From: a virus
IMG/VR virus record: IMGVR_UViG_3300020020_000050
Coordinates: 1-48,783 of that record
Reading direction: 5' to 3' (one strand)
Length of the DNA stretch: 48,783 nucleotides
Shown piece after piece: positions 33,502 through 38,092 of this stretch. The notes beneath the pieces were generated by a model that did not search any database, was not told the DNA's origin, and was given only the letters and a program-made list of their open reading frames with translations. Made by a program: the position numbers and the translations under genes. The number at the start of each line of letters is the position of its first letter. Position 1 is the stretch's first letter.

Positions 33502-34006
33502 AGTCGGCTTCTGGTCAGAGCGCATCCGGCCGAACCTGACGCGGTGTTGTCAGATGGCAGGCTTGCGCTTTCATCTTGAACGCGTCGAGAACATCGTGAA
33601 CGACGGCACACCCGATGTCGACTACGTCATCGACGGTGTGCCGGGTCAGATCGAACTGAAGTTCAGCGACACCGCGCCTGTGCGGGATACGTCCCAGGTG
33701 CTCGGGATCGGGCACGGCATGCGCCGGTCCCAGATCATCTATGCGTCGCGCCGGACCTGGGCAGGCGGGCGGCTGTGGTGCCTGATCGGCAATCAGGCCG
33801 CGACATGGCTGATCGACCTTCGCGGCATGAGCCCGCAGGAAATGGATGCCCTAGCCGTCGCCAGTGCCGCAGGACTGCGTCAGATCGCGTCGTGGCACTG
33901 CGCCGGACGCCTGGGTGTTACCTTGCCCCTTGCTTTGATTGAGCGCCTGCCTTCGGCGCATCCTCGTCCTCTTCATCCTTCTCAGGAAACAGCGGCACGT
34001 AGGTGA
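33494..34006 (+). CDS. VRR-NUC/PD-(D/E)xK-type nuclease
   Basis: 170 residues. NDGTPDVDYVIDGVPGQIEL then KFS (D41, E54, K56) is the PD-(D/E)xK core with the G-x-PD spacing of small phage VRR-NUC-type nucleases, which may resolve junctions or process recombination ends. The C-terminal 30 residues are encoded over the antisense end of the minus-strand DUF1508-like gene (89 bp overlap), so the true stop or a shorter natural C-terminus should be checked. Last gene of the plus block. Confidence 0.75.
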   Translation: MDEVGFWSERIRPNLTRCCQMAGLRFHLERVENIVNDGTPDVDYVIDGVPGQIELKFSDTAPVRDTSQVLGIGHGMRRSQIIYASRRTWAGGRLWCLIGNQAATWLIDLRGMSPQEMDALAVASAAGLRQIASWHCAGRLGVTLPLALIERLPSAHPRPLHPSQETAARR

Positions 34007-34175
34007 CAGCGTTCGGCTTCACGCCCACCGATCCGGCGAAGGCGGCAACTGCTTTCTCCGCTTCGCCTCGCGTCTCGAAGGTCTTTGATCCTTCGGCAAT
34101 CGTCGTGTCGCCGCTGTCGCTCTTGAAGCGCCAGGACCATACGCCGCTTGAACCCTGAGTGACTTCGATCTTCAT
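33918..34175 (-). CDS. Small DUF1508-like (YegP-type) protein
   Basis: 85 residues. VWSWRFKSDSGDTTIAEGSK then TFETRGEAEKAVAAF follows the DUF1508/YegP pattern (WxWRLKxxNGxxIAxGxxYxxKxxAxxAI), small alpha/beta domains often found near lysis or envelope genes. Last gene of the late minus-strand block, 11 bases after the endolysin stop. Its 3' end overlaps the nuclease gene on the other strand. Confidence 0.7.
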   Translation of the reverse strand: MKIEVTQGSSGVWSWRFKSDSGDTTIAEGSKTFETRGEAEKAVAAFAGSVGVKPNAVTYVPLFPEKDEEDEDAPKAGAQSKQGAR

Positions 34176-34186
34176 GCTACTAACTC

Positions 34187-35425
34187 CTAGTCTGTTGAAC
34201 GTGTGCGTGAGCCAAGCGCACTAGGTGGTTCTCGACGGCTCGCAAAAGATGACCCGAGCCAGAAGGCCCCAATGGTTGACAGCGATCCAATGATAGCAGT
34301 CACGACGATCAAACGCACTTCGTCGGTGTAAATTTGTCCGCCGTTTTCCCTGAGAATTTCCCACGGAAATAGGACCACGAGAACCATCATGACAACGAGT
34401 GTGAGCATGACGATAGAAATGACAAAGGCCGGTTGCGTCAGCAGCGATAGCGGTTGCCCTTCAGGCGTGCGCATCTGCGCGACTGCAATGCTGTAGTCAC
34501 GCGCCGCCGCGATGCCGCCGCCGCCTGCCTCTTGAATGTTCAAGTAGTTCTTCTCGATAGCTTGCTTCACCGCTGTTGCTTGAACAGGATCGGCCTTGAT
34601 CGCTTCAATCACCTCTTGTTCGTTCTTTGCGCCGATGGCATCTTTCGCCACAGCGAACACAGCTTCAGCCGCCGCTATATTGCGCTGTGATACCTCAGAG
34701 CCCGAGCCGAATATCTTTGTGAGTTGCGGTACGAGTTGAATGAGCGTCGGCAACAATGCCGCGACAATGGCCGGTATGGGCATAGCTTTTCCCTGCTGTA
34801 GTTCAACACCGAGATCGGTGCTGCCTTTCGTGATCTCCACTGTCTTGCTCGCGATGTGCGGCAACTTGGCCGGGAGGCTCGCTACTGGCAACATGGCCGG
34901 TTCATGCGCGGCATCTTCATTCATCAACAGACCGCCCGCCTCTTCGTATTCTCGTATGAATTCCTCCGGTGTGACAACTGGCTGACCGTAGGGTGAACCG
35001 GGCAAGCTCGCCCACTCTTTATTGCACTTCAACACCGCATTACTGATGCGACCCTCGACAACATCTTCGAGAGCCTTGCGGCCATGAATCAACGCGATTG
35101 CGGCAAGGTCTTGTGTCGGTGGCTCGAAGTTGATGAAGCCGTATTCGCCACATAAACCGAGCCAAGTTTTTTCAAGAATTTGGTAAGCACCCGCCGCAGT
35201 CGACGTGAGCCGCTTGCCGTTTTTGAGTGTGACTGTCGTGCGAATGCGCGGGTGATCGGCGAAGTCGTCGAACGTGCTGTAGACACCGTCAACACCCAGG
35301 AACAACTTACCGCCGAACAGCGTGCGGTATCCATCCTCACCCTGCGTGCCCTCGCCGAAGCGCAGCGCCCACAGGAACGCCCGCACGTTGCGCTTGACGA
35401 TGTAATCGGTGAGCGTGATCGACAT
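34187..35425 (-). CDS. Lambda R-type endolysin fused to holin-like membrane domain
   Basis: 412 residues from ATG 35425. Residues 10-167 match lambda R transglycosylase: LRFGEGTQGEDGY with catalytic Glu at 25, FDDFADHPR, TSTAAGAYQILEKTW, NKEWASLPGSPYGQ and EEAGG. After a linker, residues 215-239 are hydrophobic/amphipathic (PIPAIVAALLPTLIQLVPQL), followed by a helical region and two strong membrane helices (about 333-353 and 371-391), a layout like 3-TM holins. It is coupled by TGATG to the upstream membrane protein. A natural endolysin-holin chimera is the simplest reading; the C-terminal identity is inference. Confidence 0.8.
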   Translation of the reverse strand: MSITLTDYIVKRNVRAFLWALRFGEGTQGEDGYRTLFGGKLFLGVDGVYSTFDDFADHPRIRTTVTLKNGKRLTSTAAGAYQILEKTWLGLCGEYGFINFEPPTQDLAAIALIHGRKALEDVVEGRISNAVLKCNKEWASLPGSPYGQPVVTPEEFIREYEEAGGLLMNEDAAHEPAMLPVASLPAKLPHIASKTVEITKGSTDLGVELQQGKAMPIPAIVAALLPTLIQLVPQLTKIFGSGSEVSQRNIAAAEAVFAVAKDAIGAKNEQEVIEAIKADPVQATAVKQAIEKNYLNIQEAGGGGIAAARDYSIAVAQMRTPEGQPLSLLTQPAFVISIVMLTLVVMMVLVVLFPWEILRENGGQIYTDEVRLIVVTAIIGSLSTIGAFWLGSSFASRREPPSALGSRTRSTD

Positions 35426-35721
35426 CAATAAAACTTCGACTTACGCGGTGGCTTGTAGTCGGGTCGGTGTGGAACAACCCACAGCATCTTATGCCACATG
35501 GCAAGACAATAGAGTGCAAGTGCGATTGAAATCCACAGAGCGTCTTGTTGAATTTCTTCACGAAGAAACACGTAATAGGACCGCGAGAACGCACCCAGGC
35601 TAACACCGGCCAATGCAACGACCTCCATCACTGTCTTGCGCACGTAGCCGGAGAAGCTCGCAATTAGAGCCGTGATGCCGATGAAGAACCAACAGGCCGA
35701 AGATAAATGTGTGAGGTCCAT
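35425..35721 (-). CDS. Small membrane protein of lysis cassette
   Basis: 98 residues with two or three membrane helices (WFFIGITALIASFSGYV; VVALAGVSLGAFSRSYYVFL; ALWISIALALYCLAMWHKML) and a basic C-terminal tail (RPDYKPPRKSKFY). It lies between a holin-type protein and the endolysin and overlaps both (TAATG at its start, TGATG at its end). Holin or antiholin role is inferred from context. Confidence 0.7.
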   Translation of the reverse strand: MDLTHLSSACWFFIGITALIASFSGYVRKTVMEVVALAGVSLGAFSRSYYVFLREEIQQDALWISIALALYCLAMWHKMLWVVPHRPDYKPPRKSKFY

Positions 35722-36044
35722 TACTTGTCTTCATCCTTCTTCGGTGGCGGTATGCCTCGACGCAACCATGCATCAAGAAAACCGGATACCGCATTCGTCG
35801 ACTGCACCCACTCCCACACGCGGCTAAGCACCGACATACCGAACAGTCCCAGGAGAAAACCTGTCAAGCCGGGAGGCAACGCGAGCCACTGTGAAACCCA
35901 ATCAGTTGCATAGAAAGAGAAGAACGCACCACCAATGACCATTAGTGTGCGGTCGACAATTGTGCCGCTGACAAATTTCATCGACGCGAGAGCACCAGCA
36001 ACACCGGCTAGACGCAGCACCCACTCTTGTATGCTTTCCCACAT
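35721..36044 (-). CDS. Putative phage holin
   Basis: 107 residues, ATG 36044 preferred over GTG 36047. Hydrophobic segments about 10-22, 30-50 and 55-75 (LRLAGVAGALASMKFVSG; TLMVIGGAFFSFYATDWVSQ; PGLTGFLLGLFGMSVLSRVW), then a charged cytosolic tail (PPPKKDEDK). The layout resembles phage holins found upstream of endolysin genes. The stop and next start overlap (TAATG). Confidence 0.7.
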   Translation of the reverse strand: MWESIQEWVLRLAGVAGALASMKFVSGTIVDRTLMVIGGAFFSFYATDWVSQWLALPPGLTGFLLGLFGMSVLSRVWEWVQSTNAVSGFLDAWLRRGIPPPKKDEDK

Positions 36045-36046
36045 CA

Positions 36047-38092
36047 CTACGCGCCGCCGCCGCCTTCGCCGCCTGGGCCTAGGCTCGATAGAACCAGAGG
36101 AATCGTCCTAGTGTCTGACATCACGCCATCAGTTGTCGTCACGACAAGCGTGTCGTTGTAGGTCATGTTTATGTATGGGCTGTAAAGATAGATTTCATTC
36201 AATGCATTATTGATTGTCGTTACATCGCCAACAAACGTGAGAACTTTCCCACCTGTGCCTCTTGTGATAGTTGATTTTCCTTTGCTCAAAGGATTAGCGC
36301 CGATTGTGACTTTGAATTGATTGATGAATGCCCAATTCACAACGACATCTGTGTTTGCACTCCAAGCGTTCACGCCGCGAATAGTTGGCTGCGCAGCGAC
36401 GACCTGTCCCCATTCGCGTGTACATTCTGCCAGCGTCAGACTGGTCGCGTAATCATAGTACGTCGACAAACCAATCACGACCTTTGACGCGGGTATTTGT
36501 GTGTCAGTTATGAACTGAAGCACCTTGTTCGATACAGCGTACTGCGCCTTGAATGCAGCATTCTCCATAAATATCTGCTGGCAGAACGTCAGGCAGTTTG
36601 CGTTGTGCAGTGCAGTAGCGATGTCCTTCACTTGTTGGCTTGCTGGGTTTTGCCGGAACGTATAGACGATGTTGAACCCGGCACCATACGCCGCTTTCAA
36701 TTGCTGCGCGATATACACTGCTTCTGTTGCGAGACTCAAGCCGGTCAAGTCACCGTCATAGTTCTGGAAGTCAACGCCGTCAACGCCATTAAGATAGTAA
36801 ATGTATGGCTTGATAGAGTTCAACAAATTGTCCGACTGTTCTCGCGTCGTATAGTTAAAGCCGCGTGTTCCGGGTCCACCGATAACTAAGAAGCACCTTT
36901 GTCCTCGTGCTCTTACTTGTTGAAGATCATGCGGGGCTAGACTGCCAATAGCATGAGGCCACCCCATCGCACCATTGCTCATGTGATTCATTCGAACAAT
37001 ACCGATGCATGTGTAGTCTATCGACACTGATTTAATTGGTAAAGTACCGGAGGCATCCCAATAACAATAAACAACCTTCGCCGGAAGATTGTCGGGTTGA
37101 AGAGTAGGGCCGGTGCCCATAGCGGTCATATATTGCATCGACCCATAGGTGTCCGATAGCGTAGTTGTGATAGGCGCTTTATATGCAGTGGTGATCTGTA
37201 TTCTGTCGTCCACTTCCCAGAACACAAAGCAGGCTGGTCCTTGGTCATTGGCAACGTAATATGAATTCGGCGGCATCCGCTGTACTGGCGGAAGCTCTTG
37301 TGCTCTAACGACAATAACGATGTCGTCAGTGTCCGTCAGCGGACCGTCCGTAGTTGATATTGTGAGTTTGCCATAGCCCCAGAAGCCAGAATTCGGTTTA
37401 TAGACCAACGTGCCGAGCGCTGCGTTGATCTGCGGTTGTGTGCCGACAAGTGTCATGAGCCCTGTGTTGTTGCCCGTAATAGTTCCGCCACCGGCAATTG
37501 ACACATTGACAGTACCGCCCACTGTCGTCAGCGTTGTCGTGAGCGAGGCCACATCTGGATCGTACACACGAATGTTATCGGCCGAGAAATTAACATTCGT
37601 GAGGTAGGGAGTCAGCTTCGTGAGAGTCGGCACGGTGTTCGTCGGCCCAGGCGGTATATAAACGGGCGCTGTCCCTGACACAGTAATATCGAAACTGTCG
37701 ATGTCAATGTTCTCTCCGTCATTGATGCGCAGAGTAATCGTAGCAACACCGCTGAAACTTGTTGGCGGCGTCCAGCGCATGCCGTCCAGTGCGCGATTGA
37801 TGCTAGCCGGTGAACCAACAACAATGATCTTATTGCTCTTGTTGTTCGAGATAATCACACTTGAATTCACCATGACTTCAAGCATTCCTGTACTCGTCGT
37901 GAGTGTTGCAGTGACCAGCGGTGTATCAGTATCGGCAACCGTGACTGCGTTATTGCCCGCGACGGTGAAGTGCTTGATTGTGTCGATGTATGTAGTCTGC
38001 CCCGATGGCACGGAATTAACCGGAGGTGCATTAGAAGCCGGTGCCGGTGCCGGAACTCTTATCGGCGACCCTGCATAAAAACGTAGACCCAT
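36047..38092 (-). CDS. Tail fibre with cadherin-like repeats and GH18-like domain
   Basis: 681 residues. After MGLRFYAGSP come two beta repeats of about 110 residues (residues ~35-140 and ~155-262, each ending in an INDGEN- or TTDGPLTDTDDI-type strand). Next is a GH18-like barrel (about 275-600: RCFLVIGGPG, VDGVDFQNYDGD near 436, KVVIGLSTYYD, NAWSANTDV), then a partial third repeat. In GH18 enzymes the DGxDxDxE motif ends in catalytic Glu; here the position is Tyr. So it may bind host sugars and not cleave them. Receptor-binding fibre is the likely role. Confidence 0.7.
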   Translation of the reverse strand: MGLRFYAGSPIRVPAPAPASNAPPVNSVPSGQTTYIDTIKHFTVAGNNAVTVADTDTPLVTATLTTSTGMLEVMVNSSVIISNNKSNKIIVVGSPASINRALDGMRWTPPTSFSGVATITLRINDGENIDIDSFDITVSGTAPVYIPPGPTNTVPTLTKLTPYLTNVNFSADNIRVYDPDVASLTTTLTTVGGTVNVSIAGGGTITGNNTGLMTLVGTQPQINAALGTLVYKPNSGFWGYGKLTISTTDGPLTDTDDIVIVVRAQELPPVQRMPPNSYYVANDQGPACFVFWEVDDRIQITTAYKAPITTTLSDTYGSMQYMTAMGTGPTLQPDNLPAKVVYCYWDASGTLPIKSVSIDYTCIGIVRMNHMSNGAMGWPHAIGSLAPHDLQQVRARGQRCFLVIGGPGTRGFNYTTREQSDNLLNSIKPYIYYLNGVDGVDFQNYDGDLTGLSLATEAVYIAQQLKAAYGAGFNIVYTFRQNPASQQVKDIATALHNANCLTFCQQIFMENAAFKAQYAVSNKVLQFITDTQIPASKVVIGLSTYYDYATSLTLAECTREWGQVVAAQPTIRGVNAWSANTDVVVNWAFINQFKVTIGANPLSKGKSTITRGTGGKVLTFVGDVTTINNALNEIYLYSPYINMTYNDTLVVTTTDGVMSDTRTIPLVLSSLGPGGEGGGGA

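Follow-up and report, generated by a model that had tools for sequence, protein, structure and literature searches.

In the textbook scheme of Gram-negative lysis, the holin and the endolysin are separate proteins. In phage lambda, the holin is made from two in-frame starts as S107 and the shorter S105, the former delaying the latter, and the endolysin R is a soluble protein of about 158 residues with neither linker nor membrane domain. Endolysins with C-terminal transmembrane (TM) segments are already known, namely M4Lys of BSPM4 (PMC7143992), Enc34 ORF39 (PMC8943055), and LysAP of Acidovorax phage AP1 (PMC8879335). Endolysins with an internal start (iTSS) have been described for Gram-positive hosts, their C-terminal product being a wall-binding domain or a shorter enzyme (PMC9430671, PMC12203907); the internal-start survey of PMC9430671 omitted Gram-negative phages as unlikely. 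Holin and endolysin are found in one polypeptide in the TpeE-endolysin fusion of Clostridium sporogenes, in which the one-helix holin of this Gram-positive system is N-terminal and the enzyme comes last, and for which we came across no mention of an internal start (PMC9527704). Finally, TeaA, the product of a separate gene, is the holin of Vibrio phage ICP1; its expression makes the proton motive force collapse and causes cell lysis (PMC7182436).

The stretch of DNA analysed here (the window) is the whole of IMGVR_UViG_3300020020_000050, a linear virus entry of IMG/VR, 48,783 bases long, that encodes tape-measure, portal and terminase proteins and thus corresponds to a tailed, siphovirus-like phage. 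At positions 34187-35425, stop codon included, it contains a gene for a protein of 412 residues in which an endolysin, a linker and a holin domain follow each other. The gene lies on the minus strand, as do all window features given below, with its ATG at 35425, its coding part at 35425-34190 and its stop at 34187-34189; the first-pass annotation had missed the strand, the plus strand of this interval containing many stops. We propose that this single gene has two in-frame products, the endolysin-holin fusion and a free holin, a reading to which our sequence comparisons lead us to assign a probability of about 0.82.

The fusion resembles M4Lys, Enc34 ORF39 and LysAP in having the enzyme first, membrane helices last and no N-terminal signal, and in this sense is a C-terminal TM endolysin, but the tails of these proteins are short, with one or two helices, unlike the holin domain of the window. 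In M4Lys, the one of the three covered by our tail comparison, the tail did not match our holin profile and is not homologous to it, and no comparable internal ribosome-binding site (RBS) and start precede it. With iTSS endolysins the fused gene shares an in-frame internal start between the domains, an RBS of its own (weak in the window) and a C-terminal product, except that the predicted short product is a holin instead of a wall-binding domain or shorter enzyme. The domain order is the reverse of that in the TpeE fusion. As with the lambda dual start, holin forms of two lengths would come from one frame, but the extension is two residues in S107 and a whole enzyme here. In the open-licence literature, we found neither a description of an endolysin gene containing a holin with its own start nor any “endolysin-holin fusion”; each kind of component is known, and it is the combination of endolysin, holin domain and internal start for which no report was found.

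The enzyme domain (residues 1-167; 34925-35425) had been assigned to the lambda R type in the first-pass annotation, and this was confirmed. Residues 8-170 matched the PHROG_90 endolysins (E = 4e-37) and residues 14-166 the lambda lysozyme R structures (PDB 1am7, E = 4e-22; 3d3d, E = 5e-22), and the proposed catalytic residue, Glu25, was invariant across 35 diverse fusions. The protein thus combines the sequence match to the PHROG_90 catalytic domain with the retained catalytic Glu, and it shares with lambda R the catalytic domain, the motifs and the position of this Glu, unlike lambda R in carrying a linker and a membrane domain. Nothing in Pfam or NCBIfam scored above cut-off for the fusion protein. 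From these matches, the N-terminal part is a lambda R-type endolysin, predicted to be muralytic (transglycosylase). It does not belong to the SAR endolysins, having no N-terminal signal-arrest-release helix, the first hydrophobic segment being at residue 214. The linker that follows (residues 168-214; 34784-34924) is variable and predicted to be disordered, with AlphaFold pLDDT values below 50 for residues 173-217.

The membrane domain starts at an in-frame ATG (Met215; 34781-34783) and extends to the end of the gene (34187-34783), corresponding to a predicted free product of 198 residues. The two strong membrane helices announced beforehand were recovered by hydrophobicity at 334-352 and 372-390, together with a weaker segment at 214-232; AlphaFold placed helices at 332-352 and 368-397 within a membrane domain spanning residues 215-397, with moderate confidence when the domain was modelled in isolation (pLDDT 74). 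In direct sequence searches, tblastn of a phage collection gave no match with the C-terminal domains of the window and of three other fusions (L054, L055, L082), and with that of L086 it retrieved TeaA alone, weakly. This match was made firm by an HMM built from 46 fused membrane domains, which aligned its positions 1-175 with TeaA residues 1-169 at 78.3 bits, the TeaA Met1 falling on the junction Met, i.e., Met215 in the window. The homology thus covers the full membrane domain and includes the same starting point, except that TeaA has a gene to itself, and here its counterpart is encoded by the 3′ portion of the endolysin gene. We conclude that the membrane domain fused after the enzyme, already suspected to be of holin type, is a TeaA-type holin, its function being deduced from this homology.

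Other searches with this domain gave weaker signals. In Pfam, which the first-pass annotation had proposed for checking the membrane part, there was no match, GTA_holin_3TM (PF11351) included at its gathering cut-off; a remote link between TeaA and GTA_holin_3TM has been stated by the TeaA authors (PMC7182436). PHROG_1544 matched weakly (E from 4e-4 to 7e-3), and profile and Foldseek searches of the PDB returned nothing meaningful. With the isolated domain as query, the first Foldseek hit was VHML ORF20, a protein of the TeaA family (probability 0.98, E not significant), which came eighth when the full model was used. TeaA also has a homologue with 40% identity in MAR_60, whose annotation notes a similarity to ORF20.

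We recovered 18 full-length relatives of the fusion in IMG/VR, with 78-96% identity. Pooled dN/dS was low in the R domain (0.07) and the membrane domain (0.05) and higher in the linker (0.24), the proportion of synonymous differences being about 0.6. Both the enzyme and the membrane domain are thus under purifying selection, which excludes a frameshift or an assembly join. It had been feared that a frameshift or sequencing error joined two genes, or that no homologous full-length fusion would exist, and neither was borne out. Relatives with adjacent unfused genes do exist, which speaks for an error joining two genes through frameshift, sequencing or assembly, but the 18 close loci, and 64 loci in total, including isolate genomes, share the fusion under purifying selection; we rejected this explanation, which we regard as extremely improbable, since independent loci carry the same fusion.

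The set of 64 fusions used for statistics was obtained by scanning IMG/VR and GTDB genomes and comprises fusions from phages in IMG/VR and from prophages of Burkholderiales; as part of them stem from records that overlap, thinned sets were used in the tests. Fused genes were present in Acidovorax, Azohydromonas and Rhodocyclaceae genomes, including isolate genomes of the first two; an initial genome scan, run with A3, was negative. Three kinds of enzyme precede the holin domain: R-like in 56 fusions, GH19 in seven (PDB 9ms7, E = 1.6e-46; weak Pfam match) and Enc34-type in one (L055; PDB 7q47, E = 1.3e-13), the last structure being that of the Enc34 enzyme. The enzyme type of one known C-terminal TM endolysin is thus one of the three partners of the holin domain. 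The holin domain is present in 12 of 301 genomes from the family to which Acidovorax sp. sif1233 belongs; the frames with strong matches are 363-478 residues long, except two in genome G041 (253 and 142 residues), and weaker standalone matches are mostly 182-207 residues long. G041 has three copies of the domain (L251, L258, L260), one in a 401-residue fusion and the others in loci that break off at the domain. The design had been called unusual, a judgement that has to be tempered because it occurs in dozens of phages with three enzyme types, and because endolysins that end in a membrane domain are known in M4Lys, Enc34 and LysAP.

The region just upstream of Met215 (34784-34804) resembles an internal RBS, reading CAGGGAAAAGCT (weakened) in the window and CAGGAGAAAGCC in its siblings. 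In close relatives, CAGGAGAAAGCCATG or a near variant is found before Met215, even when the flanking residues differ. The start codon at the junction is ATG in 56 and GTG in eight of the 64 fusions, and the internal start site is retained with each of the three enzyme types. An exact Shine-Dalgarno (SD) match of at least 5 nt was present at 26 of 35 non-redundant junctions versus 39 of 542 other in-frame ATG/GTG codons of the same genes (p = 4e-20), and at 15 of 22 junctions versus 24 of 340 others after thinning to 50% identity (p = 2e-11), with the reservation that thinning removes shared ancestry in part and that the junction residues were partly hand-picked once the alignments were seen. 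Mean duplex energies were -7.2 kcal/mol at junctions and -2.6 kcal/mol elsewhere (p = 4e-10).

These observations bear on the possibility that the full-length fusion is the sole product, an endolysin that, anchored in the membrane in the manner of M4Lys or LysAP, would reach the wall via its own membrane domain, the junction motif then being a protein feature such as a K/Q-E..M turn or a protease site. There is a precedent, as M4Lys and LysAP lyse Escherichia coli alone and require their TM domain (PMC7143992, PMC8879335). The single-gene synonymous nulls are also compatible with it: taken alone, synonymous recoding did not reject conservation of KE/QE at the amino-acid level (Fisher p = 0.5; Wilcoxon shift p = 9e-4), and GAG at the site, with 17 of 20 versus 15.3 expected, did not exceed the usage of the genes themselves. 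However, the residues that encode the SD differ between fusions (PKETT, TRKPT, PKGTT, PERKP, SEVND, QEVHT and others; in short KE, QE, RK, KG, ERK, SEV, QEV), yet the SD and the ATG or GTG persist, which points to selection acting on nucleotides at the junction. Similarly, Val at the junction was encoded by GTG in 6/6 cases of the first survey (P = 0.006 from codon usage), and two adjoining Gln codons behave oppositely in the window clade, codon 211 being CAG in 13/13 and codon 210 CAA in 8/11. With TeaA starting exactly at the junction Met, and M4Lys having neither such a start site nor a homologous tail, we consider a sole full-length product improbable, at roughly one chance in eight.

The window itself is the exception in its clade. 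Codon 212 is GAG in 13 of 14 members and GGA in the window, which converts GGAG into GGGA and leaves 3 nt as the longest exact match, making its internal SD the weakest of the clade. This weakness, which a sole full-length product would also account for, suggests that free holin may be scarce in the window phage. Two other fusions are exceptional at the junction, L076 (L076:3035) having no SD and L157 (L157:5328-6080), which was excluded from the set of 64, having no ATG or GTG. The source of L157 is an Anaerolineae MAG, perhaps misbinned.

Unfused relatives of the holin domain suggest how the internal start could have arisen. In L252, L253 and L257, the adjoining upstream gene, endolysin-like by motif and GH108-like by eye, has its stop between the SD and the ATG of the holin or overlapping this ATG, and 2 nt separate the holin of Vibrio phage 1.118.B from the end of the DD-peptidase gene that precedes it. 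With the endolysin stop so placed beside the holin SD or ATG, in-frame loss of this stop yields the fused form. Most likely, therefore, adjacent endolysin and TeaA-type holin genes would have become a single frame through loss of the separating stop, the RBS and start of the holin, lying within the 3′ end of the endolysin part, being retained after fusion. The same gene order is repeated with another holin branch in L106 (L106:2501-3400), where an unfused R-type endolysin gene is followed by a separate PF11351 (GTA_holin_3TM) gene with an ATGA overlap.

Two small membrane protein genes precede the fusion in the window and were retained in 13/13 relatives tested. The first (35425-35721; 98 residues) has its stop overlapping the fusion start (TGATG) and the second (35721-36047; 108 residues) is holin-like (PHROG_2359, E = 1.5e-11). 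The claim of two holin-type genes just upstream therefore stands as two conserved membrane genes, one of which is holin-like. Stop-start overlaps chain the lysis-region genes at 35425-36047. The fusion ATG at 35425 has no clear SD, in contrast to the internal holin start of relatives, so that free holin may be made in excess of the fusion.

With these two upstream proteins as the working holins, the internal start might be a relic of the unfused ancestor that is no longer used or needed. The conservation of the PHROG_2359 holin and of the 98-residue protein would fit such a situation, as would the loss of a good SD in the window and L076 and of the start codon in L157. Retention of the SD in 15 of 22 lineages below 50% identity is nevertheless not expected of a relic, the more so with synonymous divergence of about 0.6, and no other part of the protein is as constrained as the membrane domain (dN/dS 0.05). 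We therefore judge a disused start to be unlikely, at about one chance in ten.

The gene could also encode a virion-borne wall hydrolase for entry instead of an endolysin. Bordetella phage vB_BbrP_BB8 has an R-like domain in its “internal protein D” (MK984681.1, 30452-31009), which suggests virion use of this enzyme family. The window gene, on the other hand, is located after the tail genes in a coupled cluster with the PHROG_2359 holin, its membrane domain is homologous to a holin, and its unfused relatives adjoin endolysin genes. Despite the BB8 precedent, we rejected the virion-protein reading on gene context and consider it highly improbable.

Further upstream of the lysis genes, a 681-residue ORF (36047-38092) contains repeats that look Ig/cadherin-like; it also has the segment GVDGVDFQNYDGD, which resembles a GH18 motif by eye and is devoid of the catalytic Glu; this ORF had no significant match in Pfam, PHROG or PDB. 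Directly downstream of the fusion, an 85-residue ORF with a good SD (33918-34175) looks YegP/DUF1508-type by eye and matches PHROG_1422 weakly. Scanning the window for Rfam families and tRNA genes gave no hit.

If the fused gene has two products as we propose, the enzyme-linker-holin fusion would be translated by coupling to the upstream gene, and the free 198-residue holin from the internal start. The earlier idea of a membrane protein tethering its own enzyme would then describe half of the design, a free holin being likely too. As the likeliest mechanism, the two products, sharing the same membrane domain, would co-assemble in the inner membrane, a step to which we give even odds. The fused enzyme, having no export signal, would remain at the cytoplasmic face, harmless until the free holin triggers, and the membrane lesion would then allow the tethered enzyme to reach the wall at the hole. 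Before triggering, the bulky cytoplasmic domain could block insertion of the N-terminal helix of the fused copies and thereby cause a delay. That the fusion delays triggering, as S107 does towards S105, is a tentative idea drawn from the lambda analogy, and one that we hold to be rather unlikely. We would be similarly hesitant about the more general proposal that Gram-negative phages repeatedly joined a TeaA-type holin to different endolysins while keeping the internal start, the fusion serving as an endolysin with a built-in antiholin; it is conceivable, with odds of about two to one against.

One frame thus probably yields both a holin and an endolysin in about 20 lineages below 50% identity, with three unrelated enzymes. 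This makes it testable whether an endolysin must be soluble to work, whether a holin becomes its own antiholin through a fused cargo, and in what way lysis time depends on how strong an internal start is; such tests are feasible since isolate genomes (Acidovorax, Azohydromonas) carry these genes. If the more general proposal of repeated joining is true, a single gene would determine how much holin is free and how much is enzyme-laden, the timing of lysis and the dose of enzyme would be coupled in that gene, and the enzyme would be delivered at the membrane lesion.
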